Part shown: one piece after another, positions 6,633 through 60,545 of the stretch
Layout of the letters: each line of letters opens with the position of its first letter
Numbering within the stretch: the stretch's first letter is position 1
Source of the DNA: Oscillospiraceae bacterium
Lineage (GTDB): Bacteria; Bacillota; Clostridia; Oscillospirales; Ruminococcaceae
Assembly: GCA_020054675.1 (NCBI GenBank)
Contig: JAIHAL010000001.1
Location: 62,001-126,000 of the forward strand
Direction: 5' to 3'
Length of the DNA: 64,000 nt
Made by a program: the position numbers and the translations under genes
Notes under the pieces: generated by a model
What the model was told of the DNA's origin: nothing
Databases searched by the model: none
Seen by the model: only the letters and a program-made list of their open reading frames with translations

Positions 6633-7415
6633 ATGCCGTTTATTGAAGTGAAAGGTCTTAGAAAAGTTTATAGGCTTGGTAGCGAAAAAGTTGTGGCACT
6701 GAATAAAATTGACCTTGAAATTGAAAAGGGAGAAATTTGCTGTATACTTGGAACTTCCGGCTCCGGAAAATCCACTTTTTTGAATATGCTTGCGGGACTT
6801 GAAAAGCCTACGAAAGGCTCAATTTTAATAGGCGGCCGCGACATTGCAAAAATGAGTGAAAAGGAACTTGCAAAATTCAGACAGGAAAATACAGGGTTTA
6901 TTTTTCAATCTTACAACTTGCTCCCGTCGCTTACTGCGGCTGAAAACGTAAGCTTGCCGCTTATGTTTAAAGGCATTTCCAAAAATAAAAGGGAAAAAAT
7001 AGCGAAAAGCATGCTTAAAGCCGTAGGGCTTGAAAACAGGATGTCGCACCGGCCAAATCAAATGAGCGGCGGTCAGCAGCAAAGAGTAGGAATAGCAAGG
7101 GCGTTTGTGGCAAAACCGAATGTAGTTTTTGCCGACGAGCCGACAGGAAACCTTGACACCAAAACCACAGCCGAAGTTATGGAGCTTATGGTTAGGATGT
7201 GCAGAAAATACAATCAAACGCTTATTCTTGTTACGCATGATGTGGATATAGCAAAATATGCGGATAGAATAGTCCATTTGATTGACGGCAACATAGACAG
7301 CGATAAAAGGAATGAATCAATAGTTCCAAAGGAGCCGCTTGAAAAAGAAGACGGCAAAACAATAAATAATGCTTGCGAAAATGAAAATATGCAGGCGGAG
7401 GAGATAGGGCAATGA
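6633..7415 (+). CDS. ABC transporter ATP-binding protein, MacB/LolD type
   Basis: A 260-residue ATPase: Walker A GTSGSGKST at 40-48, Q-loop in FIFQSYN near 90, signature MSGGQ at 144-148, Walker B VVFADEP at 164-170 with the adjoining TGNLD typical of the MacB/LolD/FtsE class, and a THD switch histidine near 200. The last 35 or so residues are an acidic, lysine-rich tail not needed for the fold. The start is ATG 6633, not the preceding TTG. It overlaps the next gene by the ATGA type, and with the secreted protein and permease it forms a three-gene operon probably acting at the cell envelope. Confidence 0.93.
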   Translation: MPFIEVKGLRKVYRLGSEKVVALNKIDLEIEKGEICCILGTSGSGKSTFLNMLAGLEKPTKGSILIGGRDIAKMSEKELAKFRQENTGFIFQSYNLLPSLTAAENVSLPLMFKGISKNKREKIAKSMLKAVGLENRMSHRPNQMSGGQQQRVGIARAFVAKPNVVFADEPTGNLDTKTTAEVMELMVRMCRKYNQTLILVTHDVDIAKYADRIVHLIDGNIDSDKRNESIVPKEPLEKEDGKTINNACENENMQAEEIGQ

Positions 7416-9298
7416 AAGATTTATTAAAGAAAATTTCGGTTTTTATTACAGCATTTTTGATTGCGGTTGTTTTTATAATTCCTGATTTTGGGGTTTTGGC
7501 GGATACTACAACACCTGATTCATCATCTACGTCCACATCCACATCCACGTCCACGTCCACATCTACCTCAACCTCAACAACTACAACTATAACTACAATC
7601 ACAACATCCACTACAACAATTACTACAAAACCTATTGAAGGTTCTCCTAATTTTATAATTTCAAGTGTTAGCGGAAATAAAATTGAAGCCGGTAAAACAC
7701 AAACAATTTCAATAAGGTTAAAAAATGTTGGCGATGATTGCAAAAGATCTACAATATCAATTTCAGATGAAAAAGGTATTTTTAGTTTCCCATTTGGTGA
7801 AATTCAAAGCATTTCATACATTGATGAAAATGATTACCAAACGATTTCTTATGAAGTAAGTACCCCTGATTATACATCAAGTGGAAGGTATTCTTTAAAA
7901 CTTGATTTAACTAATATAAATTACGATAAAGTTTCTTCAACACAAAGCCTTAGTTTTTATGTTGATGTTAAAAATAATATTAAAATGGGAGGCCTTGAAG
8001 TTTCGTCCTATTCTACCGATAAAGTGGATGTAAAGGATGGGGATGCTTTTCTTTTGACGGTTAAGCTTAAAAATAATTCTGGGATGAATATAACTGGTGC
8101 CAAAATTTCGCTTGGCGGGCTTGACGGCACAAAATTTGCTATGAACAACGGGCTTTCATCCTATACGGTGGATGTTGCAAAGGATGCCGAAATAACTTTG
8201 CAGTTTCCTTTGGTTGCATGTAAGGGCATTGCATCAATAAGGGAAGTTCTTCCGCTTAACATATCATATTACATAAATCCAAATGATTCCGCAACAAAGC
8301 AAGAGTATTCAAGCAATATTACGATAAGCTGTGCAAAACCGGCTGAAACCACATCAACGACCGAACCCAAGGTTTTTGCGCCTAAGATAATAATTGAAAA
8401 ATATTCTTTTGGCGGAGATTATGTAACCGGCGGAAAAACATTCCCGCTTTCGCTTACTATAAAAAATACCAGTTCAAATGCACAAATACAAAATTTAAAA
8501 GTAACCATTCAAGGAGGTTCTTCGTCTGCCGGCAGCTCATCGGTGGTTGCTTTTACTCCTGCAAATTCTTCAAATTCATTTTTCTTTAAAGCGCTTAATG
8601 CCAATGCTTCGGAAAATATAAATATAGAAATGCTTGCAAAAGCCGATGCAACGCCGAACAGCTATCCAATTGAAGTTGTGTTCAACTATGAATATACGGT
8701 AAACGGCAGAAAAGGAGACAGCGTTGAAAATGTAACGGAAACTATCAATATCCCGCTTCAACAGGAGGACAGACTTGAAGTAAATCAGCCTGAATTGCAG
8801 GAAACAGGCATGGTGGGGCAGGAAATGCCAATAAGCGTTGGCATAGTAAATAAAGGCAAGAGCTCAGTTTATAATGTTACAGTCGATATAGTCGGCGAAG
8901 GTTTTACGAAAACTTCAGCGGCAGCATATTACATAGGCAATATAGACAGCGGCAAAGAGGAATCTTATGACAACAGCATAGTCCCTAATGCGGAAGGACA
9001 GGTAAAGGGCGAAATTGTAGTAACATATGAGGACTCCAACGGAAAGCAGAAGGAAATACGCAAGGAGTTTTCTTTTAATGCAATGCAAATGGTTATTGAT
9101 GACCCGTCAATGACCGGAAGCGATATGCCTGTTAATGGCGATGTTGGAAATAACGGCACATCTCCTGTGCTGATAATAATTATCGTTGTGGTTGGAGTGG
9201 TTGTTTTGGGAGCCGCGGGCTTTGTGGCATTTAAGATTATAAAGAAAAGAAAGTTCAAAAAGGCTCAAGAAATAGAGGATGACGATGAAGTTCTTTGA
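7412..9298 (+). CDS. Secreted, membrane-anchored CARDB-like protein with Ser/Thr linker
   Basis: A 628-residue protein with an N-terminal signal sequence (about residues 1-31), a Ser-Thr repeat at 39-56 running on as a Thr/Ile-rich stretch to about 73, a long extracellular part with several beta-sandwich-like repeats of the NVGD/LKNNSG kind (resembling CARDB or COG1361 domains), and near the C-terminus one membrane helix (about 588-610) followed by a basic cytoplasmic tail. It is sandwiched between the ATPase and the permease, overlapping both, so it is probably an accessory or substrate-binding partner of the transporter. No enzymatic motif is visible, and its ligand is unknown. Confidence 0.75.
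   Translation: MKDLLKKISVFITAFLIAVVFIIPDFGVLADTTTPDSSSTSTSTSTSTSTSTSTSTTTTITTITTSTTTITTKPIEGSPNFIISSVSGNKIEAGKTQTISIRLKNVGDDCKRSTISISDEKGIFSFPFGEIQSISYIDENDYQTISYEVSTPDYTSSGRYSLKLDLTNINYDKVSSTQSLSFYVDVKNNIKMGGLEVSSYSTDKVDVKDGDAFLLTVKLKNNSGMNITGAKISLGGLDGTKFAMNNGLSSYTVDVAKDAEITLQFPLVACKGIASIREVLPLNISYYINPNDSATKQEYSSNITISCAKPAETTSTTEPKVFAPKIIIEKYSFGGDYVTGGKTFPLSLTIKNTSSNAQIQNLKVTIQGGSSSAGSSSVVAFTPANSSNSFFFKALNANASENINIEMLAKADATPNSYPIEVVFNYEYTVNGRKGDSVENVTETINIPLQQEDRLEVNQPELQETGMVGQEMPISVGIVNKGKSSVYNVTVDIVGEGFTKTSAAAYYIGNIDSGKEESYDNSIVPNAEGQVKGEIVVTYEDSNGKQKEIRKEFSFNAMQMVIDDPSMTGSDMPVNGDVGNNGTSPVLIIIIVVVGVVVLGAAGFVAFKIIKKRKFKKAQEIEDDDEVL
7526..7579 (+). repeat. In-frame hexanucleotide repeat encoding Ser-Thr
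   Basis: About nine copies of a hexamer close to TCCACA or TCCACG, read as Ser-Thr. Slippage would lengthen or shorten the linker by Ser-Thr units without a frameshift. Confidence 0.8.
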
Positions 9299-10688
9299 TA
9301 TTATCGGAATGTGCTTTAAAAATCTTTGGCGCAGAAAATTAAGGACCTTGCTTACGGTTTTGGGCGTGGTTATAGGCTCATGCGCAATAATTGTAATGAT
9401 TTCGCTGGGACTTGGTTCAAATGCGGCGCTTGAATATTCCCTTAAACAAATGGGGGATTTGAATGTCGTCACTGTTTATGGAAACAATAACGGCGGCGGT
9501 GTTGTTGTAGACGCTTCCGGCTCATCAAAAAATGCTTCCGGAGCGCCGCCGAAACTTGATGATGCGGCGCTTGAAACAATAAAAGCTCTTGATGGAGTGG
9601 AAGTTGTTTTCCCAAAACTTCGGCTTGATTCAAATATGTTTTCTATTTATGCGGGAAAAAATAACCGTTATAAGGCGCAATGGATAGAAATTTACGGTGT
9701 TTTCCCTGAAGAGCTTGAAAAGTTTGGGTATAAGATTGACCAAGGTCAGCTTCCTGCTGAAATGGGCAATAAATATATTATTTTCGGTTCACAGGCAGCA
9801 TATCAGTTTGCCGATACAAAAAGGAAAAATAGAATGGTTTGGAAAGAGGATAAGGGCGACGGAACTTTTACTGAACCTTTTTTCAAGCCGCTTGAAGAAA
9901 CGATTTTCCTTGCCGTAAACAATACCAAAAAAGACCCTGATTCCAATGGGAATTACCAAAGCGGCGGCAGAAGCTATGAGCATAAACTCAAGGTTGCGGC
10001 AGTGCTTAAAGAAGATTACAATAAGTATGAAAGCGTAAATGCAATAATGCTTGACATGGGCTTTGCAAAGCAGCTTTTGGCGGATTATAACCGTCTTAAC
10101 GGGATAAAGAATTATGATACTTCTTATACCGAGGTTGCAATCTGGGTTAAGGATTTAAATAAAGTCGGCAGTGTGCAGGATGCCGTAACTGAGATGGGAT
10201 TTCAGGCTTACAGCATGGATTCTATACGCGACCAGCTTCAAGGGCAGGTTGTAAAGCAGCAGATGCTGCTTGGAGGCCTTGCGGCAATCAGCCTTTTTGT
10301 TGCGGCAATAGGCATAACAAACACCATGATTATGTCCATTTACGAGCGCACAAAGGAAATAGGCGTCATGAAGGTGCTTGGCTGCTTTATTTCAAACATA
10401 AGGCAGATGTTTTTGATTGAAGCCGGTTTTATAGGCTTTATAGGCGGTGTTATTGGCTCGATTATAAGCATAATAATTTCCATTGTTTTAAATGCAGTGG
10501 GCGGCGGCGCAATTGGAGTGGATATGTATTTTGGAGATACAGGGAAAAGCGTTCCGATATCCATAATACCATTTTGGCTTATTTTGCTTGCGATTGCATT
10601 TTCAACCTTAATAGGACTTGTTTCTGGATTTTCTCCTGCAAACAGGGCGGTTAAAATTTCCGCGCTGGAAGCAATTAAGAATGAATAG
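9285..10688 (+). CDS. ABC transporter permease, MacB/FtsX type
   Basis: A 467-residue permease with the N-terminal cytoplasmic NLWRRKLRTLLTVLGVVIG start and first membrane helix characteristic of MacB, a periplasmic-core-type extracellular domain of about 280 residues, then three membrane helices near 330-350, 375-400 and 430-455, with the ISIYERTKEIGVMKVLG motif of the FtsX domain. I prefer ATG 9285 to ATG 9279 because GAGG at 9275-9278 is then correctly spaced. The start lies inside the end of the preceding gene. With the ATPase it is likely a mechanotransmission-type transporter for a peptide, lipid or cell-wall stress signal; the substrate is unknown. Confidence 0.9.
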   Translation: MKFFDIIGMCFKNLWRRKLRTLLTVLGVVIGSCAIIVMISLGLGSNAALEYSLKQMGDLNVVTVYGNNNGGGVVVDASGSSKNASGAPPKLDDAALETIKALDGVEVVFPKLRLDSNMFSIYAGKNNRYKAQWIEIYGVFPEELEKFGYKIDQGQLPAEMGNKYIIFGSQAAYQFADTKRKNRMVWKEDKGDGTFTEPFFKPLEETIFLAVNNTKKDPDSNGNYQSGGRSYEHKLKVAAVLKEDYNKYESVNAIMLDMGFAKQLLADYNRLNGIKNYDTSYTEVAIWVKDLNKVGSVQDAVTEMGFQAYSMDSIRDQLQGQVVKQQMLLGGLAAISLFVAAIGITNTMIMSIYERTKEIGVMKVLGCFISNIRQMFLIEAGFIGFIGGVIGSIISIIISIVLNAVGGGAIGVDMYFGDTGKSVPISIIPFWLILLAIAFSTLIGLVSGFSPANRAVKISALEAIKNE

Positions 10689-10717
10689 TGGATTTTTTGC
10701 AGGCAATATGGTATAAT
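10689..10717 (+). promoter_or_regulatory. Promoter of the DUF896 gene
   Basis: Extended -10 TGGTATAAT (TATAAT at 10712-10717) with a poor -35 (TGGATT at 10689-10694). Confidence 0.5.
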
Positions 10718-10751
10718 TAAATTTATTAATGCTTCAAAGGGAGAAATTTTA

Positions 10752-10967
10752 ATGGAACAAAAAAAAATTGACAGGATAAATGAACTTGCAAGAAAATCCC
10801 GTACAGCCGGTCTTACAGAAGCTGAAAAAGCGGAACAGGCAAAGCTCAGGCAGGAATATCGTGATGCTATGAAGAGGAGCCTTATAGGCCAGCTTGAAAG
10901 CATAACTGTTCTTGAAGCTGACGGGACAAAGCATAAGCTTTGCGAAAATGCAAAAGTTTGCAGCTGA
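10752..10967 (+). CDS. DUF896 (UPF0291, YnzC-like) protein
   Basis: A 71-residue, highly charged helical protein. It has the family pattern KIDRINELARKSRTAGLTEAE followed by EQAKLRQEYRDAMKRSL. In Bacillus the relative YnzC is a small helical-hairpin protein in the LexA/SOS-associated yneA operon; the biochemical role is unknown. It stands alone between the ABC operon and a strong hairpin terminator. The C-terminal CENAKVCS with two cysteines is beyond the conserved part. Confidence 0.9.
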   Translation: MEQKKIDRINELARKSRTAGLTEAEKAEQAKLRQEYRDAMKRSLIGQLESITVLEADGTKHKLCENAKVCS

Positions 10968-10976
10968 TAAAAAATG

Positions 10977-11014
10977 AAAACGGGACTTTGCCGTAATTGG
11001 TAAAGTCCCGTTTT
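10977..11014. terminator. Bidirectional terminator
   Basis: AAAACGGGACTTT pairs with AAAGTCCCGTTTT, with an extra GCC/GGT segment around a six-base loop. T-runs are present on both strands, so it ends the DUF896 transcript and also the minus-strand transcript that runs through the TnpB-like gene. Confidence 0.9.
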
Positions 11015-11143
11015 ATTAATAGCTGCCATTGCTTTTTAAAAGCCCTGCACAGCAGGATTTGACCGCTTTGGGGGAAATTCCCTTTCGGCAGTTCCGGCGT
11101 AGCAGCTCACCAAGCATTTTTATTAAGCAGAAAACCCTGCCTA
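11015..11143 (-). ncRNA. Candidate omega-RNA-like structured 3' flank of the TnpB-like gene
   Basis: Right after the stop codon of the TnpB-like gene, the minus strand carries a run of small hairpins: GCAG/CTGC (11127-11140), a CCG/CGG stem enclosing GGGAA/TTCCC (11063-11088), CCTGC/GCAGG (11044-11056) and a GCTTTT/AAAAGC palindrome (11031-11043). It then has 16 unpaired bases (11015-11030) and the transcription terminator. This is where TnpB guide RNAs lie, with scaffold first and guide last. It encodes no protein and is far more structured and GC-rich than other gaps here. The role is inferred from position and structure only. Confidence 0.45.
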
Positions 11144-12535
11144 TTTTATTTCAATGAAGTTGATTTTAGAAAAGGCGTTTTCGCCAAGCAGCTTTTTTGC
11201 TGTAAATTGCTGATGTTTTGAAAAATTTCCTATGTTTAGCGCAATGTGTTTTTGCAAACGTTCGCAGAATTCGTTTGCGGCGGAAAGGCTTTTTGCGCAG
11301 ACAACTTCATAATCCAGTATATCAAGCCTGAAAATAATTGAGTTTTCCTCAGTTTTGTAGTATACGGGGATTTTGTTGTTTTTGTATGTTATAAGTGTTT
11401 TGGCAAGATTTGATGAACCGATTTCCTCCAAATTATCGGAATGTCCGCACATTGTGCAGATGAACTTGTCTTTGAGGAAACGGTTTGCGCGTTTGAAGTT
11501 TCCGCATCTTGTGCATCGGTAAAAGATTGAGTTTGCACTTACAAAAGCAACTTCCAATCCGGCAAGCTCTGCCTTGTATGAAACAAAAAATGCAGTTTTA
11601 TTGTAATCGCCGACGCTTAAAGGAAGCTTGATTCCTTTCATTTTAAGCCCGTCACTGCTTGTTGATAGATTCTCCATTATAATGCAGGCGTTGTTTTCTT
11701 TTGCAAGCTTTATAATTTCATTTGAAAGGGAATGAAGTTTATTCAGACCATATATGCTGCTGATATTTATACATCCCTTGGAAGCAATTTCACCGTTTTT
11801 TGAAGAAATGGCATAGCATAAATCTGAATTTATTCCGCGGGATATGCCTATATAAGCTGAAAAAGGCTGTTTTAGAGGTGCGGGATACCAAAAACGGACA
11901 TTGAGGTAAAAATCATCCCCTTTCCGGACAAGTTCCGCACTTTTTGGTGTGCAAATTCCGCTTTCCATATCGCTTAAAAATTTTTTGTTCCACTCGGCTG
12001 CATGCAGAGGGAAAACAGCGTAGCGCTTTGAATTTTGTGCATTGTTTCTGTTGAAAAGATAAAGCTTTGCAAAGTATGTGCCTTTTTCGGATTTAAATAT
12101 GGAATAATCCCTTTTTTCATCAAAACGGCAAAAAAGCAAGGGTCTTTTCTTTTCATATTTTTCAAATACAGTGTTTAATTTTAATTTTGAGATTTTTTCT
12201 TCGCTTTTAAGCAAAACCTCAATGTCCTCATCAAAAGTCCTTGTAACGGGATAGGATGATTTTTTTGAAAAGTAAACCGCCAAAAGCCTTGCAAGGTCAA
12301 GCTTTAAAGCATCTTTAAAAGGCTCCACTCCCAAATTTGAAACGCATTTGAAAAAATTTTTATCCATCAGCTTTAAAAGCTCGGTTTTTGAGGGTGGGGT
12401 ATCGGTAAGGAATTTTTTTATTTCACGCAAAAGGATTTCAAAAGCTGTTGAATATCTCCATATTGCATCTTCAAGCAATGCTTTTTTTGATTTTGATGGA
12501 TTAAGCAGCTTAATTTGCATTGTTTTGTATGGCAT
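11141..12535 (-). CDS. TnpB/OrfB-like RuvC-fold protein with degraded catalytic site
   Basis: A 464-residue protein with the layout of TnpB: N-terminal helical and beta part, a RuvC-I strand YIGISRGIN at 228-236, RuvC-II IIMENL at 285-290 with Glu288, a zinc ribbon with Cys341, 344, 360 and 363, then the RuvC-III position. In active TnpB, RuvC-I reads GIDxG; here the aspartate is Ser232. At RuvC-III the usual aspartate aligns with Glu370 and NAA becomes GSS. Two of three catalytic acids are therefore replaced, while the zinc ribbon is intact. About 85 residues follow the RuvC fold, more than usual. It starts 12 bases after the phosphatase gene behind AGAGGA, so it is the last gene of the redox operon, with no tnpA nearby. 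It could be a domesticated RNA-guided DNA binder; this is inference. Confidence 0.75.
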   Translation of the reverse strand: MPYKTMQIKLLNPSKSKKALLEDAIWRYSTAFEILLREIKKFLTDTPPSKTELLKLMDKNFFKCVSNLGVEPFKDALKLDLARLLAVYFSKKSSYPVTRTFDEDIEVLLKSEEKISKLKLNTVFEKYEKKRPLLFCRFDEKRDYSIFKSEKGTYFAKLYLFNRNNAQNSKRYAVFPLHAAEWNKKFLSDMESGICTPKSAELVRKGDDFYLNVRFWYPAPLKQPFSAYIGISRGINSDLCYAISSKNGEIASKGCINISSIYGLNKLHSLSNEIIKLAKENNACIIMENLSTSSDGLKMKGIKLPLSVGDYNKTAFFVSYKAELAGLEVAFVSANSIFYRCTRCGNFKRANRFLKDKFICTMCGHSDNLEEIGSSNLAKTLITYKNNKIPVYYKTEENSIIFRLDILDYEVVCAKSLSAANEFCERLQKHIALNIGNFSKHQQFTAKKLLGENAFSKINFIEIK

Positions 12536-12547
12536 TTTTTCCTCTAA

Positions 12548-13717
12548 TCAGTAAAATTCTATTTCGACGGTTTTGCCGAGCCGTTTTAAACATTCGGCAA
12601 TGTCACTGACAAGCCTTAATTTTAAATTAAGGCTTATAGGCAGGTCGGGATTTTGGTGCGCGGGATTTATTGCGCGGCCAATGACGAATTTTGCTCCCGT
12701 GCACTTGTTTATAAGCATTTGGGCAAGCTGAGATGCACCGTCTTTTTTGGAATTCAGCATATTGTCACGCCCGATAGAGCCGCTTTCATAGCGCTTTAAT
12801 ATATCATAGCATTTGCCGAGGGTTATTACCCCTTCGGTTACAAGGTCAATGCCTTCTATGCGCCCTATGGGCGGAACGTCTGGACTTATATAATTGAGCA
12901 TTATTTGGAGCTCACGTCTTGAAATTCTGCTGACGATTTGAGATGTTGTGCCGCCGCAGACAATTTTTGTGCCGTTGAAATTTATAAGCTCGTTTACGAT
13001 TCTTTCGTCGTCATCGGATGAAAGGGGAGGTCCGACCATAACATAAGCAATATCCGGAGTTCTTATCTTGCATATGGCAACCGTAGTGTCATCTCCCGGC
13101 GCATCCATGTAAAGGCTCTTGCATGCCTGCAAAAGAAGATTTTGCAGATAAAATGCGGTAGATTCCTTTCTGTAGCTTTTTTCAATATATTCGACGACGT
13201 TTTTATGCTCCCAGCCAAGGTTTAAAAGTTTTCCCACTCCGGCATGCACCACTCCGTCGCTGAAAGTTATGCAGAAATCATTTGGTTTAAGTGTTATGTG
13301 CGTTTCGCGGATTTTTTTGCCGTTTACGACATATTCCTCCCGCGGCAAGGGAAGTGCTTTTCCATCCCGAAGTATTACAGTGTCCGGATTGTCGAATTCC
13401 ACCAGATGGGTTTCTCCGTTGTCTTTTATGTGTATAAAGCTGAAAGTTGAGTATGCTATTTGCCTTTCTTTGCAGACGGGCAAAGTTGAAGCCATGGTTT
13501 CGATGACATCCTGTACGCTTGCTCCCTCTGAGAGCATGGTTATGGCTATTTTGCTTGTGAGCGAGGCAAGTATGTTTGCCTTTACTCCGCTTCCAAGCCC
13601 GTCTGCAAGGACAATAAATGTATCTCCGTCTTTTTTGAGGATTTCCACCTTGTCCCCGCAAAGCTCTTCGCCGTATTTGTTTACGCTGCCCCAGCTTGTT
13701 TCTATGTAGAGATTCAT
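12548..13717 (-). CDS. SpoIIE-type serine phosphatase linked to a hydrogenase-like sensor
   Basis: A 389-residue protein whose N-terminal 220 residues are a PP2C/SpoIIE phosphatase domain: VLADGLGSGVKAN near 36-48 and FSDGVVHAG near 152-160 hold metal-binding aspartates, and PGDDTTVAICKI near 206-217 is the closing motif. The C-terminal half, with GPPLSSDDDERIV, CGGTTSQIVSR and TEGVITL, is a separate conserved domain found in phosphatases that neighbour iron-only-hydrogenase-like sensors. It lies 12 bases after the HfsB-like gene in the same operon and probably dephosphorylates a partner in answer to that sensor. The target is not in the window. Confidence 0.85.
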   Translation of the reverse strand: MNLYIETSWGSVNKYGEELCGDKVEILKKDGDTFIVLADGLGSGVKANILASLTSKIAITMLSEGASVQDVIETMASTLPVCKERQIAYSTFSFIHIKDNGETHLVEFDNPDTVILRDGKALPLPREEYVVNGKKIRETHITLKPNDFCITFSDGVVHAGVGKLLNLGWEHKNVVEYIEKSYRKESTAFYLQNLLLQACKSLYMDAPGDDTTVAICKIRTPDIAYVMVGPPLSSDDDERIVNELINFNGTKIVCGGTTSQIVSRISRRELQIMLNYISPDVPPIGRIEGIDLVTEGVITLGKCYDILKRYESGSIGRDNMLNSKKDGASQLAQMLINKCTGAKFVIGRAINPAHQNPDLPISLNLKLRLVSDIAECLKRLGKTVEIEFY

Positions 13718-13729
13718 TTTATCTTACCT

Positions 13730-15427
13730 TTAAAAATTTTTATCTTGCGCTATGGATTTTTTTAAATTTATAAGCGCCGCTTTTGTTTCTCCGGCTGTTT
13801 CGCCGAGAAGGCTGGCGATTTCCTGCGCCACCCTCATTTGCTTGTCTATGATTTTTTGAGTGGTTTCAAGAGTGTCGCGCCGGATTTTTTCAAGCTCAAG
13901 GCTGCGTTCATATTCAGCGGTCATATTTTTGGCAATTATAATATAATCGCGGTTAGGGGCGTGGATTATGCTGATTTCAAGGAACAGCCTGTCGGAAGTA
14001 TCCTTGCAGTTGGCATAATAAACATTTTTGCCTGAACTTTTCACTTCTTTGAAATGTTCTGAATTTATAAGCATTTCAATCGGCAGGCCGATTGTTTCGG
14101 CGCTTATTTGCGGGAACATCTTTGCTGCGGCAGGATTGTATTCAAGGATATTGAAAGCGCTGTCGGTTACAAAGATTGCATCCGGAGTGTTTTCAAGGAT
14201 TATGTTTGACATTGATTCCGCCTTTTCCCTCATGTATGGGAGACACATTTTAAGGTCGGCCTTGCCTTGAAATACGGCAATGGCTTTTTCACGGCAGGTT
14301 GAGTATCCGCAAGCTCCGCAGTTGAGCATTTGCGCCTGAGAGGTTTTGCCTATGCTTGCAAGTATGCTGTTTATTGTATCTTCATCCGGGACCTTGTCCT
14401 TTACAAGCGTAATATTAAAGACTTTTGACAAATCAGTTGCGGTTTCTTCGGACTTTGGCATAGGAGTTTTGGTTTCTTTTAGAGCGTTTTTAATAATCAA
14501 ATCCTTTGCAACAAGGAAAGGAGCCGCATTTCCATGCATCCCGGGACCCTGCACGCAAGAGCCTGCGCATGAGCTCATTTCAAGGAAATAGCCCTCAATT
14601 TCGCCGCTTTTTAAAGAATCAAGAATTCCTATGCACCTGTCAACTCCATCAACGGCAAGGGTTTTGTAGCTTGCTCTTGCATCTTCGGGAATTGTATGAA
14701 TAATTCCCTCCGGTACGGGATAAAATCTGTTGACGGTATCGTGGATTTCCGTTGCAGTTTCGTCTGGAACTGTAAAATCAATATTTTCCTCCGCAAGCCA
14801 ATTTTCAAGCTCGTCAAACATAAGCACCGCATCGATGTAATTATTCATTTGAGCTTCAAATTTCTTGGATATGCACGGTCCTATGAAAATTACCTTTATG
14901 TCGCCGCCGTAAATTTCTTTAAGAGTTTTTGCATGCGCCGTTGCCGGAGCTGCGACCGGAGCAAGAAAAGGCACAAGCTCCGGGTAATATTTTTCCACAA
15001 GAAGATTTACAGTCGGACAGCATGTGGTTATTATGTTTTTCATTGCCTTTTTGCGCATAAGCTTTGCGTATTCAGCAGAAACCATTTTTGCGCCGATTGC
15101 CGTTTCCTCAACTCCATAAAAGCCAAGCTTTTTAAGAGCGGCGGAGAGATTTGCAAACGGCACGTTTTTAAATACCGAAACATATGACGGGGCAATGGAT
15201 GCAAAAAGCTTTTTTCCGCTTTTTATGTATTCCTTTGTCTTAGGCAAATCTGACCTTATGACTTTTGCGTTTTGAGGGCAGACAAGCGTGCATTTTCCGC
15301 AGAGAATACATTCGCTGTCAAGTATCCTTGCCTGGTCGTTGCTGAATTTTATAGCTTTTAAATCGCAGTTTCTTATGCATTTATAGCAGCCTTTGCAGTT
15401 TGCTTCTTTGAATTGGATAATATCCAT
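13730..15427 (-). CDS. HfsB-like [FeFe]-hydrogenase-related redox sensor with PAS domain
   Basis: A 565-residue cytoplasmic protein. Two [4Fe-4S] motifs have cysteines at 11/14/17/21 and 40/43/46/50. A hydrogenase large-subunit C-terminal domain follows, with H-cluster-type cysteines in TTCCP (136,137), GPCISKK (185) and EMSSCAGSC (287,291). An Fe-S domain CGACGYSTC...MC (370,373,378,395) comes next, then a PAS domain at about 411-510 and a short coiled-coil tail. This matches HfsB or group C sensory hydrogenases, thought to sense H2 or redox state rather than make bulk H2. The H-cluster ligands look kept, although TSCCPxW has become TTCCPTV. It is the second gene of the operon, beside a phosphatase. 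Confidence 0.88.
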   Translation of the reverse strand: MDIIQFKEANCKGCYKCIRNCDLKAIKFSNDQARILDSECILCGKCTLVCPQNAKVIRSDLPKTKEYIKSGKKLFASIAPSYVSVFKNVPFANLSAALKKLGFYGVEETAIGAKMVSAEYAKLMRKKAMKNIITTCCPTVNLLVEKYYPELVPFLAPVAAPATAHAKTLKEIYGGDIKVIFIGPCISKKFEAQMNNYIDAVLMFDELENWLAEENIDFTVPDETATEIHDTVNRFYPVPEGIIHTIPEDARASYKTLAVDGVDRCIGILDSLKSGEIEGYFLEMSSCAGSCVQGPGMHGNAAPFLVAKDLIIKNALKETKTPMPKSEETATDLSKVFNITLVKDKVPDEDTINSILASIGKTSQAQMLNCGACGYSTCREKAIAVFQGKADLKMCLPYMREKAESMSNIILENTPDAIFVTDSAFNILEYNPAAAKMFPQISAETIGLPIEMLINSEHFKEVKSSGKNVYYANCKDTSDRLFLEISIIHAPNRDYIIIAKNMTAEYERSLELEKIRRDTLETTQKIIDKQMRVAQEIASLLGETAGETKAALINLKKSIAQDKNF

Positions 15428-15443
15428 TTTTATCTCCTGAACT

Positions 15444-15695
15444 TTATTTGTTTATTAAGGGGAGGATTTTTTCGTTAAAAATGCTTTCTATCTTTTGAGG
15501 AGTTACATTTGTGATTTTTTCTCCGCAAATTTCCATGCATACGCCGTTTGTGCAGTTGCCGCTGCAAAAACTTGCCTTTAAAACGATTTTTTCTTCCGCA
15601 TTGTTAAGGGAAATGAGCCGCTTTAAGGCTTCAATTACAAGATATGAGCCTTTCATATGGCAAGAACTGCCAACGCATACGCAAACGTCAATCAC
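15444..15695 (-). CDS. [2Fe-2S] thioredoxin-like ferredoxin (NuoE/HydA-associated type)
   Basis: An 83-residue thioredoxin-fold ferredoxin. Cysteines in CVCVGSSCHMKG near residues 5-12 and CSGNCTNGVC near 44-53 have the spacing of the NuoE-type [2Fe-2S] cluster. The start is GTG 15695 behind GGGAGG. It is the first gene of the operon, 16 bases before the hydrogenase-like sensor, to which it probably passes electrons. Confidence 0.88.
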   Translation of the reverse strand: MIDVCVCVGSSCHMKGSYLVIEALKRLISLNNAEEKIVLKASFCSGNCTNGVCMEICGEKITNVTPQKIESIFNEKILPLINK

Positions 15696-15733
15696 GACAA
15701 AACCTCCCGAAATTTAAAAAGTAATCAAATTTA

Positions 15734-15762
15734 ATTATATCATTTTAAAGCTTCTTTTTCAA
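15734..15762 (-). promoter_or_regulatory. Promoter of the redox-sensor/TnpB-like operon
   Basis: On the minus strand, TTGAAA (15757-15762), a 17-base spacer and TATAAT (15734-15739), about 40 bases before the [2Fe-2S] gene. Confidence 0.75.
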
Positions 15763-15795
15763 TATCGCGGCAGGGCAATAATTTTCTCAAAAAGC

Positions 15796-15824
15796 TTGCA
15801 TTTTTATGCAAATAAATTTATAAT
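15796..15824 (+). promoter_or_regulatory. Promoter of trpB2
   Basis: TTGCAT at 15796-15801, 17-base spacer, TATAAT at 15819-15824, divergent from the redox operon promoter. Confidence 0.75.
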
Positions 15825-15874
15825 AAACTTATTGCATAAATAAGCGGAATACCGCAGAGAGGACGATTTTTAAA

Positions 15875-17245
15875 ATGTCTAAAATCCCATACAAAATTTA
15901 TCTTTCCGAAGAGGAAATGCCAAAACAATGGCATAATATAAGGGCGGAAATGAAAGAACTTCCCGACCCGTTTATAAATCCGGCAACTCTGAAGCCTTGC
16001 ACGGCGGACGACCTTGCGCCGGTTTTCTGCAAGGAACTTGTAGAGCAGGAACTTAATGTTACAGACAAATATATAGATATTCCAAAGGGAATACTTGACT
16101 TTTATAAGATGTACCGCCCATCGCCGCTGGTAAGGGCATATGAGCTTGAAAAAAAGCTTGATACCCCTGCAAAGATTTATTATAAATTTGAGGGTACGAA
16201 TACATCCGGTTCGCATAAGCTTAATTCCGCCGCGGCACAGGTTTATTATGCAAAGCAGCAGGGACTCACGCACCTTACAACTGAAACCGGCGCAGGACAG
16301 TGGGGAACTGCCCTTTCGATGGCTTGCGCTTATTATGGAATAGATTTGACGGTTTATATGGTTAAGGTTTCGGCTGAGCAAAAGCCTTACCGCAAGGCGG
16401 TTATTGAAACCTATGGCGGAAAGGTAATTCCGTCGCCGTCGGAAACCACTGAAATAGGAAGAAAAATTCTTGCCGAAAACCCCGGTACGGGAGGTTCTCT
16501 CGGCTGCGCAATTTCAGAGGCAATGGAAGTTGCTCTTAAAACTCCGAATTGCCGTTATGTGCTTGGAAGCGTGCTCAACCATGTTGTGCTCCATCAGTCG
16601 GTAATAGGAATGGAAGTTAAAAAGGCTTGCGAAAAGTATGACATTCAGCCGGATGTCATTATAGGCTGTGCCGGAGGCGGTTCAAACCTCGGCGGACTTA
16701 TTTCGCCGTTTATGGCTGATAAAATCAACGGGAAAAACAATATTGAATTTATTGCTGTTGAACCTGCATCCTGCCCGTCGCTTACAAGAGGAAAATATGC
16801 TTTTGATTTTGGCGATACGGGAAAAACTACTCCGCTTATGAGGATGTATACACTTGGCAGCGGATTCATGCCTTCGCCAAACCATGCGGGAGGACTTCGC
16901 TATCATGGCATGAGCCCGATAGTTTCAAAGCTTTACCATGATGGATACCTTACGGCAAGGGCTGTTGAGCAGACAAAGGTATTTGAAGCTGCCGTAATGT
17001 TTGCAAGGTGCGAGGGCACTCTTCCGGCGCCGGAATCATCCCACGCCATCAGAGTTGCGGTTGACGAGGCGCTTAAATGCAAGGAAACCGGTGAAGCAAA
17101 GACAATTGTATTTGGTCTTACCGGAACGGGATACTTTGATATGTCGGCATATATGGCATACCATGACGGCAGGATGAACGATTATGTTCCTTCTGATGAG
17201 GATTTGGAAAAAGGTTTTGCCACACTTCCCCAAGTGAATTTGTAA
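15875..17245 (+). CDS. trpB: TrpB-like PLP enzyme (tryptophan synthase beta, TrpB2 type)
   Basis: A 456-residue fold-type II PLP enzyme that should make tryptophan from serine and indole. The PLP lysine is Lys115 in GSHKLNSA, the ETGAGQWG loop lies near 137, the phosphate-binding GCAGGGSN near 265 and the serine-type C-terminal GTGYFDM near 425. The length and the N-terminal extension mark the TrpB2 subclass, which acts without TrpA. No other trp gene is near, so it may salvage indole. It is monocistronic, with its own promoter and a perfect terminator. Confidence 0.9.
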   Translation: MSKIPYKIYLSEEEMPKQWHNIRAEMKELPDPFINPATLKPCTADDLAPVFCKELVEQELNVTDKYIDIPKGILDFYKMYRPSPLVRAYELEKKLDTPAKIYYKFEGTNTSGSHKLNSAAAQVYYAKQQGLTHLTTETGAGQWGTALSMACAYYGIDLTVYMVKVSAEQKPYRKAVIETYGGKVIPSPSETTEIGRKILAENPGTGGSLGCAISEAMEVALKTPNCRYVLGSVLNHVVLHQSVIGMEVKKACEKYDIQPDVIIGCAGGGSNLGGLISPFMADKINGKNNIEFIAVEPASCPSLTRGKYAFDFGDTGKTTPLMRMYTLGSGFMPSPNHAGGLRYHGMSPIVSKLYHDGYLTARAVEQTKVFEAAVMFARCEGTLPAPESSHAIRVAVDEALKCKETGEAKTIVFGLTGTGYFDMSAYMAYHDGRMNDYVPSDEDLEKGFATLPQVNL

Positions 17246-17260
17246 TAGAATGATGCAATA

Positions 17261-17300
17261 AAAATCTCCGCTTTGCAATGGCAGGCAAAGCGGAGATTTT
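17261..17300. terminator. Bidirectional terminator between trpB2 and the aminotransferase gene
   Basis: Perfect 16-base arms (17261-17276 and 17285-17300) around an 8-base loop, beginning AAAA and ending TTTT, between convergent genes. Confidence 0.93.
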
Positions 17301-17302
17301 TT

Positions 17303-18583
17303 CTATTGGTTGAGGAGTTTTTCTGCACTTGCAAGTTTTAAGCAAATGCAGAAAAGCTGCATGGCAAGCTCAAGTTCTTCAAGGGGAGGGTAGGTGGGCG
17401 CAATTCTTATGTTGCGGTCCCTTGGGTCAATTCCGTATGGGAAAGTTGCTCCGGCGCCGGTAAGCACAACGCCTGCGTCCTTGCAGAGGGAAACAACTCT
17501 TTTTGCGCAGCCGTCAAGGGTATCGACAGAAATAAAGTACCCGCCGTTTGGATTTTTCCATGACGCTATCCCAAGCGGAGCAATTTCTTTGTCAAGCGCT
17601 TCAAGCACCTTGTTGAATTTAGGTTCAATGATTTGACGGTGCTTTTTCATGTGTTCAAGCATATTTTCATATGTGCCGAAAAATTTCAAATGCCTGAGCT
17701 GATTCATTTTGTCATGTCCGATTGTTTGCATGGACATGATTTTCTTTATATGGTTTATGTTTTCCTCAGAGGCGCCCATAACCGCAACTCCGGCTCCGGC
17801 AAAGGTGATTTTTGAAGTTGAACCGAAAATATATACCATGTTTGGCTTTCCGGCCTTTTTGCATTCGTCAAGGATGTTGAGGAGCGTGTCTGGAGTATCT
17901 TTCAAATGGTGGATGCAGTAAGCATTGTCCCAGAAAATCCTGAAATCCTTTGCGGCCGGGGAAAGGTTTGCAAAGCGCTTTACGACTTCATCGGAATAAG
18001 TGATTCCCTCAGGGTTTGAATACATGGGCACGCACCAAATTCCCTTTATGAGCGAATCGCTTGAAACGAGCTTTTCAACCATATCCATGTCGGGACCATC
18101 GTCAAGCATAGGAACAGTAATAAGTTCAATGCCAAGGCTTTCGCAAATTCCAAAATGCCTGTCATATCCTGGGCTGGGGGCAAGAAATTTTATTTTTTCC
18201 TCTTTTGACCAAGGCTTTTCGCCCCCGGGAACGCCGTAAAGCATTGCCCTTACAACGGTGTCATACATAAGGTTAAGGCTTGAATTTCCATATACAATGG
18301 TTTCTTTTGGAGAAACACCAAGCATTTTTCCAAAAAACTCCTTTGCCTCCGGCAGACCGTCAACAAGCCCGTAGTTTCTGCAATCGGTTCCGTCCTTTGC
18401 AAGAGGTGATGACGTGCTGTTCAAAACATCAAGCATAGGCATGGAAAGGTCAAGCTGTTCAGCGCTTGGCTTTCCTCTTGACATATCAAGCTTAAGCCCC
18501 CTTGCCTTAAAGGCCTCATATTCCCTTATAACATCTTCTTTGAATTTTTCAAGCTCCGCTTTATTCATTTTACTGAGCTGCAT
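17303..18583 (-). CDS. Class I aminotransferase (PF12897/MocR-like aspartate aminotransferase type)
   Basis: A 426-residue fold-type I PLP enzyme. The PLP-binding lysine is Lys258 in FGSTSKITF, with the substrate-binding MYSNPEG at 187-193 and cofactor-contacting Asp219 in FWDNAY. The N-terminal sequence LDMSRGKPSAEQLDLS and GNSSLNLMYD are typical of the long AspB subgroup found widely in Clostridia and Actinobacteria. It starts at ATG 18583 behind GGGAGGAT. It probably transaminates aspartate or another amino acid; no pathway context is visible because it stands alone. Confidence 0.88.
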   Translation of the reverse strand: MQLSKMNKAELEKFKEDVIREYEAFKARGLKLDMSRGKPSAEQLDLSMPMLDVLNSTSSPLAKDGTDCRNYGLVDGLPEAKEFFGKMLGVSPKETIVYGNSSLNLMYDTVVRAMLYGVPGGEKPWSKEEKIKFLAPSPGYDRHFGICESLGIELITVPMLDDGPDMDMVEKLVSSDSLIKGIWCVPMYSNPEGITYSDEVVKRFANLSPAAKDFRIFWDNAYCIHHLKDTPDTLLNILDECKKAGKPNMVYIFGSTSKITFAGAGVAVMGASEENINHIKKIMSMQTIGHDKMNQLRHLKFFGTYENMLEHMKKHRQIIEPKFNKVLEALDKEIAPLGIASWKNPNGGYFISVDTLDGCAKRVVSLCKDAGVVLTGAGATFPYGIDPRDRNIRIAPTYPPLEELELAMQLFCICLKLASAEKLLNQ

Positions 18584-60402: not shown

Positions 60403-60417
60403 TTAGAAAACTTAATA

Positions 60418-60512
60418 GTCGGGGGGCTTGCACATGCAGGCTGAGATAAAGCGAAATGTAGCTTTGACCCGTTAACCTGATTTGGATAATGCCAACGTAG
60501 GGAACTATCATT
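60418..60512 (+). promoter_or_regulatory. TPP riboswitch (THI element)
   Basis: The conserved core is nearly perfect: GGGGGGCTTGCA, then GGCTGAGAT, GACCCGTTAACCTGAT, GGATAATGCC and AACGTAGGGAA. It binds thiamine pyrophosphate and, with the terminator at 60546, would shut off thiC-thiE-thiD when TPP is plentiful. Confidence 0.97.
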
Positions 60513-60545
60513 AAAATGGTGATTCTATTTTAATTTTTTGATGAT

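Follow-up and report, generated by a model that had tools for sequence, protein, structure and literature searches.

A TnpB-like protein lacking the RuvC-I aspartate and a conserved RNA behind its gene in the operon of an HfsB-type hydrogenase sensor

What is a relative of a transposon nuclease doing at the end of a metabolic sensor operon? The question is raised by a stretch of 64,000 nucleotides (nt) from an Oscillospiraceae bacterium (assembly GCA_020054675.1, contig JAIHAL010000001.1, forward positions 62,001-126,000; this whole stretch of DNA is referred to as the window). Its TnpB-like gene closes a tightly packed putative operon, composed of genes for (i) a ferredoxin, (ii) an HfsB-like sensor, (iii) a SpoIIE-type phosphatase and (iv) the TnpB-like protein. 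A preliminary description of the locus, made from the sequence alone, had noted the loss of RuvC catalytic residues and had proposed an RNA-guided repressor or binder whose expression follows the sensor operon. Our analysis showed that the protein represents a family in which the RuvC-I Asp is lost throughout and whose genes are directly followed by a conserved RNA; of the readings considered, these data best support a regulatory ribonucleoprotein (RNP) that is nuclease-dead.

The relatedness of the protein to TnpB and Cas12f is statistical and, by sequence, confined to its C-terminal half. Library matches comprise Cas12f1-like_TNB of Pfam (8e-6), Cas12f2 (6e-18) and guided_TnpB (1.7e-9) of NCBIfam and, for the C-terminal half, Cas12u3/Cas12f of PADLOC; TnpB/Cas12f chains of the PDB were also matched (best E 1.4e-15, with the family profile). 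The N-terminal half has no library or PDB match, yet it is conserved within the family, whose alignment contains 32 invariant columns, with 21 lying N-terminal of RuvC-I. In the window protein, the RuvC-I motif reads GISRG (Ser232 in place of Asp), RuvC-II retains Glu288, the RuvC-III position is occupied by Glu370 with GSS, and the CxxC/CxxC zinc ribbon (Cys341/344/360/363) is intact, followed by a C-terminal part of about 95 residues behind the RuvC-III position. Apart from this last figure and the numbering of the cysteines, the residues had been read in the preliminary description and were borne out by the translated open reading frame (ORF) and the alignments.

The 19 full-length members of the family were aligned with 18 ordinary TnpB proteins (genomes, contigs and loci are designated below by our G, C and L numbers). 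ORFs shorter than 320 amino acids (aa; L119, L120, L122, L125, L128 and the second ORF of L129) and G541 were left out of the ordinary controls, and the partial gene of G103 was excluded from the residue, tree and substitution-rate work. The RuvC-I Asp is present in all 18 ordinary proteins and in none of the 19 family members, which have S, A, G, V or T instead; the Arg adjoining the lost residue occurs in 19/19 members vs. 3/18 ordinary TnpB. The RuvC-II Glu is kept in five members (the others have Q in eight, K in three, Y in two and A in one) and in 15 of the 18 controls, the remaining three having Gly there and Glu in the next column. At the RuvC-III position, Asp is found in 18/18 ordinary proteins, whereas the family has Glu (11), Asp (6), Pro (1) or Gln (1). 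In G308, none of the three catalytic acids is left (A, A, Q). All four zinc cysteines are preserved in 19/19 members, and the part C-terminal of the RuvC-III position is 93-107 residues long, as compared with 16-57 in ordinary TnpB. Judged by these residues, the family is predicted to be nuclease-dead: of the hallmarks of an active TnpB, the CXXC-CXXC zinc ribbon is present, the D-E-D triad is not, and the basic stretch between RuvC-I and RuvC-II that grips the RNA in TnpB is shortened.

The distribution of the family was examined in genome searches in which few candidates per genome were scored, and the counts are lower bounds. Matches were obtained in three of 61 relatives (own genome included), in 11 of 394 genomes of the order (five family members, G000, G044, G103, G132 and G308, and six with the C-terminal TnpB part only), in 18 of 391 genomes of the class (the own genome, 14 full-length members and three partial or ordinary TnpB) and in 18 of 348 genomes of the phylum, where, besides the own genome, only G844 appeared family-like by eye, as a fragment. 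Including G001, whose protein is 86% identical to that of the window, the family comprises at least 20 genomes, 19 of them with a full-length gene, in eight families. The G844 fragment (L146, C56), from a distant phylum member, contains a stop; its contig, 6.3 kb long, gave neither a sensor nor a phosphatase match.

The placement in a redox- or H2-sensor operon recurs across this range. Each of the 19 loci that extend far enough has HfsB-like and SpoIIE-type genes upstream of the TnpB-like gene and in the same orientation (in G103, the contig ends within the TnpB-like gene). The TnpB-like gene immediately follows the phosphatase gene in 16 of these loci, and in the other three (G531, G504 and G477) an AdhE gene, assigned by Pfam, lies between them. 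Genes for NADH-type hydrogenase subunits adjoin the operon in several members, with G597 confirmed by Pfam; neighbours in the other genomes were listed, and a few of these genomes were scanned with Pfam. One copy per genome was found in the six genomes checked with the family profile (further matches E 0.01 or worse). In the own genome, the protein query gave no second copy at E up to 10, and the profile search gave one further weak match (E 0.037). The relatives, which might have proved to be scattered, decaying transposon genes or to retain an intact RuvC-I Asp, are syntenic and lack this residue in 19/19 members. Around HfsB matches that lack the gene, we inspected 18 regions, in 17 of which the sensor gene was visible; no TnpB-like gene was present in any of the 18, as judged on the sensor strand and with some regions ending at contig ends. 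In several of them the neighbour is another hydrogenase-like gene. G132 and G308 carry both kinds of operon.

On the tree, the family forms a single clade (support 100/100) apart from the 18 ordinary TnpB. When the label "with TnpB-like gene" was mapped on a tree of HfsB (36 rows), two changes were needed, a value as low as this being reached in 0/500 shuffles; this tree is compatible with a single origin. The ratios of nonsynonymous to synonymous substitution rates (dN/dS) between the window and G001 are 0.106 for the TnpB-like gene, 0.021 for the phosphatase gene and 0.053 for the sensor gene. Values of 0.08-0.13 were obtained for the TnpB-like gene in five further pairs, of which four overlap within one genus and the fifth, G494/G567, has a dS of 2.0; the pair G504/G477 is saturated, and its dN/dS could not be computed. 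The family is thus mostly under purifying selection.

Beyond what the preliminary description had reported, the 3' flanks of the 19 members were found to contain a conserved element between the stop codon and the terminator. It is composed of a hairpin with GCUGC (or GCUAC, GCUGU) in its loop, further hairpins, and GCAGC (or GUAGC, ACAGC) followed by UAU (GAU in G308), and a clear terminator-like hairpin is located behind it in all members but G508. The loop of the first hairpin (H1) and the GCAGC strand form a pseudoknot, with compensatory A-U pairs in G481 and G477 and a U-A pair in G508. In the second hairpin (H2), both sides are changed at four of five pairs; these figures were taken from the alignment, since the automatic H2 finder chose another stem in several rows. 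H1 is only 79% paired in the alignment, because MAFFT misregisters four rows (G000, G001, G132 and G308); a permissive one-by-one search found 5-8 H1 pairs in 19/19 sequences, which is weak evidence taken alone. The paired percentage, the number of double changes and the covariation score were reached by 0/500 shuffles, and slid controls pair at 21-50% vs. 93% observed.

A covariance model built on the nested pairs of the 19 sequences (best 150 candidates per genome scored) placed the RNA beside the gene in 20/20 genomes, with E values from 3.6e-30 to 2.2e-16, all other matches being at 0.0016 or worse. In the held-out G103 (L020), the RNA is found just behind the gene (E 5e-21). No significant match was obtained in 17 sensor loci lacking the gene or in the ordinary TnpB loci searched (best E 0.05). 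Since the RNA stands beside the gene in every case and has no significant match in gene-less sensor loci, it follows the TnpB-like protein and not the sensor operon, and this conserved association makes an RNA-dependent function likely. No Rfam family was matched at the gathering threshold in the window or five member loci; the best sub-threshold match, PyrG_leader (32.7 bits vs. a cut-off of 65), falls on the RNA end and the terminator. A second conserved, leader-like element (AGGGGAGTAGC...CAACAACCGG) was seen downstream of the RNA in L057, L059, L061 and L062, before a gene that appears TerC-like by eye. We take this element to recall the yybP-ykoY riboswitch; Rfam gave no match at the gathering threshold in L153. 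The features of the window are collected in Table 1.

Table 1. Position and basis of the features of the TnpB-like gene, its RNA and the putative operon in the window.
Feature	Position	Strand	Basis or remark
Intrinsic-terminator-like hairpin, probably the RNA end	10977..11014	-	fold
Conserved structured RNA directly behind the TnpB-like gene (extent of model R1)	11008..11120	-	alignment, covariance model
Short tail TTAAT from pseudoknot to terminator, at the expected start of a guide	11015..11019	-	placed by analogy with Nakagawa et al., 2023 (portions available)
3' pseudoknot strand GCAGC	11022..11026	-	covariation
Hairpin H2 (TCCTGC-TGT-GCAGGG)	11043..11057	-	5 pairs, paired in 100% of alignment cells
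Hairpin H1, arms 11113-11108 and 11099-11094, loop holds the 5' pseudoknot strand	11094..11113	-	
5' pseudoknot strand GCTGC	11102..11106	-	five pairs formed in 19/19, compensatory changes in 3 sequences
Nuclease-dead (predicted) TnpB-like protein, 464 aa	11141..12535	-	ATG at 12535, stop at 11141
SpoIIE/PP2C-type phosphatase, 389 aa	12548..13717	-	Pfam
HfsB-like sensor, 565 aa: ferredoxin-like clusters, [FeFe]-hydrogenase large-subunit domain, FeS domain, PAS domain	13730..15427	-	Pfam/NCBIfam libraries
Thioredoxin-like [2Fe-2S] ferredoxin, 83 aa, at the head of the putative operon	15444..15695	-	Pfam

The TnpB-like gene is separated from the end of the phosphatase gene by 12 nt and is preceded by AGAGGA, and a Pfam scan of the nine other ORFs of the neighbourhood revealed no TnpA; on these points, too, the preliminary description was correct. 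No CRISPR-like array is present at positions 7000-18000, where repeats of at least 20 nt within 300 nt form four short, imperfect families. The window phosphatase contains the Asp motifs of SpoIIE/PP2C-type phosphatases. The operon phosphatases of G308 (L018, 8093-9127) and G132 (L019, 4759-5784) are without these motifs (DG changed to CPG, PGDD lost), the phosphatase of the second sensor operon of G308 retains them (by eye), and that of G044 (L007, 6842-7516) is shortened to 224 aa. In such cases, a single signalling operon may encode two or three pseudoenzymes. Elsewhere in the window, a thiamine pyrophosphate (TPP) riboswitch was detected by Rfam at 60410-60520 of the forward strand (75 bits).

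In TnpB RNA, the guide starts immediately behind the 3' strand of the pseudoknot (Nakagawa et al., 2023, PMC10097598; the papers identified here by PMC numbers are cited from the portions available). By eye on the folds, the corresponding tail, from pseudoknot to terminator, is roughly 4-14 nt long in most members, with outer terminator pairs reaching further in in G044 and G706, and any guide would thus be very short. Behind GCAGC, A and one further base, the lineages have TCTGAC, TCTAG or TCTA, TCTGTCCGGA, and TTAA or TTTA; the tail is similar between species over its first few nucleotides only. A tail of this length does not exclude targeting, since the dead TnpB relative TldR still reduced motility with guides down to 6 nt (PMC13418256).

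Tail patterns were used as queries for genomic targets, with no mismatches allowed and with the pattern read backwards as the control. TCTGTCCGGA was found at 20 places in G494/G567, two of which are the RNA itself (control 13, the one pattern above its control); the sole place outside the locus common to both genomes falls within a long ORF. For TTAAYAAARCG in G000/G001, there were eight places, again two of them the RNA itself (control 56). The latter pair shares an intergenic site, TTAATAAAACGG (G000, C13:52570) and TTAACAAAACGG (G001, C69:3141), near a gene that looks potA-like by eye (L198, L197, L213 and L214). This site, TTAA[T/C]AAAACGG, matches the tail of the own RNA at 12/12 and 11/12 nt, and site and guide change together at one position. 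It is a weak candidate target, because the pattern is degenerate at exactly the changing position. CATATCTGACA was found at 11 places in four f47 genomes (control 12), one of the 11 loci (L206) not being resolved; its site in G597 (C1:3965746; L212/L215), 160 nt before an ORF judged alcohol-dehydrogenase-like by eye, is a weak lead. TCTAGTTDAGA occurs in G556 in the own RNA only and in G774 in the own RNA and at three more places (control 12). The places of CATATCTGACA also include sites about 400 nt upstream of the sensor genes of G504 (L052, 13826) and G477 (L053, 13740), where AAAACCATATCTGACA matches TATCTGAC of the RNA, a weak lead that points to possible autoregulation. When one mismatch was allowed, tail matches of at least 10 nt in the loci around each operon were few, and none was convincing.

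How might such a module work? An operon with an HfsB-type [FeFe]-hydrogenase sensor would have acquired, probably in a single event, a TnpB descendant that is nuclease-dead. This operon would yield the sensor, the phosphatase, the dead TnpB and the RNA together, the RNA coming from the 3' end of the same transcript. Protein and structured RNA would form an RNP, whose amount or activity would be set by the sensor state (H2 or redox) and the phosphatase, and this RNP would bind DNA and thereby switch the genes for hydrogenase or alcohol dehydrogenase, or the operon that encodes it. On balance, we think it probable that a nuclease-dead RNP serves in this manner as the nucleic-acid-binding output arm of the H2/redox sensor. 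A more specific proposal, an RNA-guided transcription factor in metabolic sensing, is put forward more tentatively, as a possibility short of a probability: a fixed guide of about 6-12 nt, ended by the terminator, would mediate H2-dependent silencing or freeing of fermentation or transport genes, and the protein and RNA scaffold would have been shortened in parallel, so that the guide RNA would be unusually small, with about 65-110 nt between the start of the first hairpin and the end of the pseudoknot.

Several results weigh against a regulator of this kind. The stretch from RuvC-I to RuvC-II comprises 51-68 residues with 5-11 Lys/Arg in the family vs. 79-99 residues with 11-24 Lys/Arg in ordinary TnpB; in the TnpB structure, the RuvC helices alpha-1 and alpha-2 bind RNA stem 1 and the triple helix, and the RNA contacts Q227, R231, R232, R238, H262 and K263 are all located in the segment bounded by the catalytic residues D191 and E278 (Nakagawa et al., 2023, PMC10097598). 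This shortening had not been noted in the preliminary description. The four target patterns, in the order given above, have 18, 6, 11 and 3 places outside the RNA vs. 13, 56, 12 and 12 in the controls, i.e., no clear excess. One of the five covariation measures, the number of further pair types, is that of the shuffles (14 vs. 13.9). Folded on its own, the window RNA shows no exceptional stability (z -0.67), so that the case for the RNA rests on covariation and linkage. The TnpB-like gene is under weaker constraint in the pair G132/G308 (dN/dS 0.36), and the gene of G103 (L020, C197), at a contig end, has two in-frame stops with the RNA kept, which may reflect decay or an error in this 62% complete genome. 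HfsB matches (E up to 1e-60; best three candidates per genome) were found in at least 105 of the 394 genomes of the order, of which at least five have the TnpB-like gene, so the sensor usually works without it. A structure predicted from two sequences (window and L005) was of low confidence (predicted local distance difference test, pLDDT, 41; predicted template modelling score, pTM, 0.36), and no conclusion was drawn from it.

The shortened basic stretch, the long part behind the RuvC-III position and the short tail, with its limited likeness between species, would also suit an RNP that has kept its RNA partner and given up DNA targeting. Such an RNP might serve in signalling or sequestration, with the sensor or the phosphatase holding or releasing it, for example, or might control the stability or termination of its own operon mRNA; that the 11-nt tail pattern has no second match in G556, a one-contig genome, counts in favour of this reading. 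The conservation of the zinc ribbon and the N-terminal part counts against it, and the action of TldR with 6-nt guides (PMC13418256) shows that a short tail leaves room for targeting; we regard the loss of targeting as rather unlikely. More improbable still is that the downstream element is an ordinary 3' untranslated region or terminator structure, with the protein acting alone as a DNA-binding or scaffold protein: the location between stop codon and terminator and the unexceptional fold energy of the window RNA agree with this, whereas the pseudoknot covariation, the strict association with the gene and a position that is that of the TnpB guide RNA (PMC10097598) do not.

Acidic residues remain at the RuvC-III position in 17 members and at RuvC-II in five, and from them one might imagine a protein that still cuts by means of a rearranged or alternative site. 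However, with the RuvC-I Asp replaced in 19/19, Q, K, Y or A at RuvC-II in 14/19 and no acid left in G308, we give this very little credence, the RuvC-I column by itself making an active nuclease improbable. A transposon gene in decay that follows the operon by chance, to which the in-frame stops of G103 might point, is scarcely credible given the purifying selection, the 19/19 synteny over eight families, the single clade and the single copy in six genomes; it was rejected on synteny, clade and dN/dS. The preliminary proposal of an RNA-guided repressor or binder is upheld in so far as the protein is predicted to be nuclease-dead, is conserved and domesticated, has its gene in the putative redox/H2-sensor operon and is accompanied by a conserved RNA; guidance by base-pairing was not supported by the short tail, the shortened stretch and the target searches.

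The nuclease-dead RNP regulator that we favour has its closest counterpart in TldR, reportedly the TnpB-like, nuclease-dead repressors of Wiegand et al. 2024. Both have TnpB descent and homology with an inactivated RuvC domain (here as judged by its residues), a stable link to non-transposon genes and an accompanying RNA, which is here adjacent, conserved and pseudoknotted. They differ in the partner, an H2/redox sensor and a phosphatase here vs. fliC, csrA or oppF for TldR, and in the very short RNA tail before the terminator, the conserved C-terminal extension and the lack of an identified target in the present family; the shortening between RuvC-I and RuvC-II is relative to ordinary TnpB, not to TldR sequences. 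Chromosomal csrA-linked TldR occur in Oscillibacter (PMC13418256). With the TnpB of IS200/IS605 elements, the family shares the zinc ribbon (TNB), the RuvC frame and a pseudoknotted RNA 3' of the gene (PMC10097598), but it lacks the catalytic triad and a TnpA among the scanned neighbours, the RNA-binding stretch between the equivalents of D191 and E278 is shortened, and the stop codon marks the earliest point at which the conserved RNA starts, whereas the RNA of these elements overlaps the gene. Cas12f and Cas12u provide the best library matches of the C-terminal half; unlike them, the window locus has no CRISPR-like array in the range scanned and has lost the RuvC-I Asp.

The remainder of the operon resembles those of the HfsB/HydS group C [FeFe]-hydrogenase sensors, in which the sensor and phosphatase genes lie near hydrogenase and adhE genes (PMC5707799, PMC6776011): its sensor combines a hydrogenase-like domain with PAS, and a phosphatase gene adjoins. 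Only a minority of such operons carry the TnpB-like protein and its RNA as an additional module. The available text of PMC5707799 does not contain the word transposase, and no TnpB-like protein is mentioned in the portions of PMC6776011 examined. Among the titles and abstract openings listed in a literature search on TnpB with hydrogenase, TldR and exapted TnpB, and hfs or sensory hydrogenases, none described such a module; an earlier mention is possible in Wiegand et al. 2024 or in the 2023 PNAS survey of TnpB.

In T. saccharolyticum, the adhE transcript increases when hfsA or hfsB is deleted, and several thermophiles make more ethanol after deletion of hfsB (PMC5707799). A cluster of R. albus with sensor, phosphatase, hydrogenase and adhE genes is 111-fold lower in coculture, an effect ascribed to H2 levels by the authors of that study (PMC6776011). 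T. saccharolyticum and R. albus are outside the set of organisms examined here for the TnpB-like gene; the hfs-operon studies fit a regulatory output not yet known.

The route from the HfsB/HydS H2 sensor to gene expression is left open in the available portions of PMC5707799 and PMC6776011, and the TnpB-like module is a testable candidate for this output. Flux moves towards ethanol when hfsB is deleted, and the response of a related cluster to H2 is strong; in one branch, a conserved, presumably nucleic-acid-binding module with an RNA of its own sits in that very operon. If a guide of 6-12 nt proved to work, this would bear on the minimal RNA needed by a Cas12-like scaffold. The family would represent a case of a transposon nuclease recruited to regulate core metabolism, outside the settings of phages and flagella.

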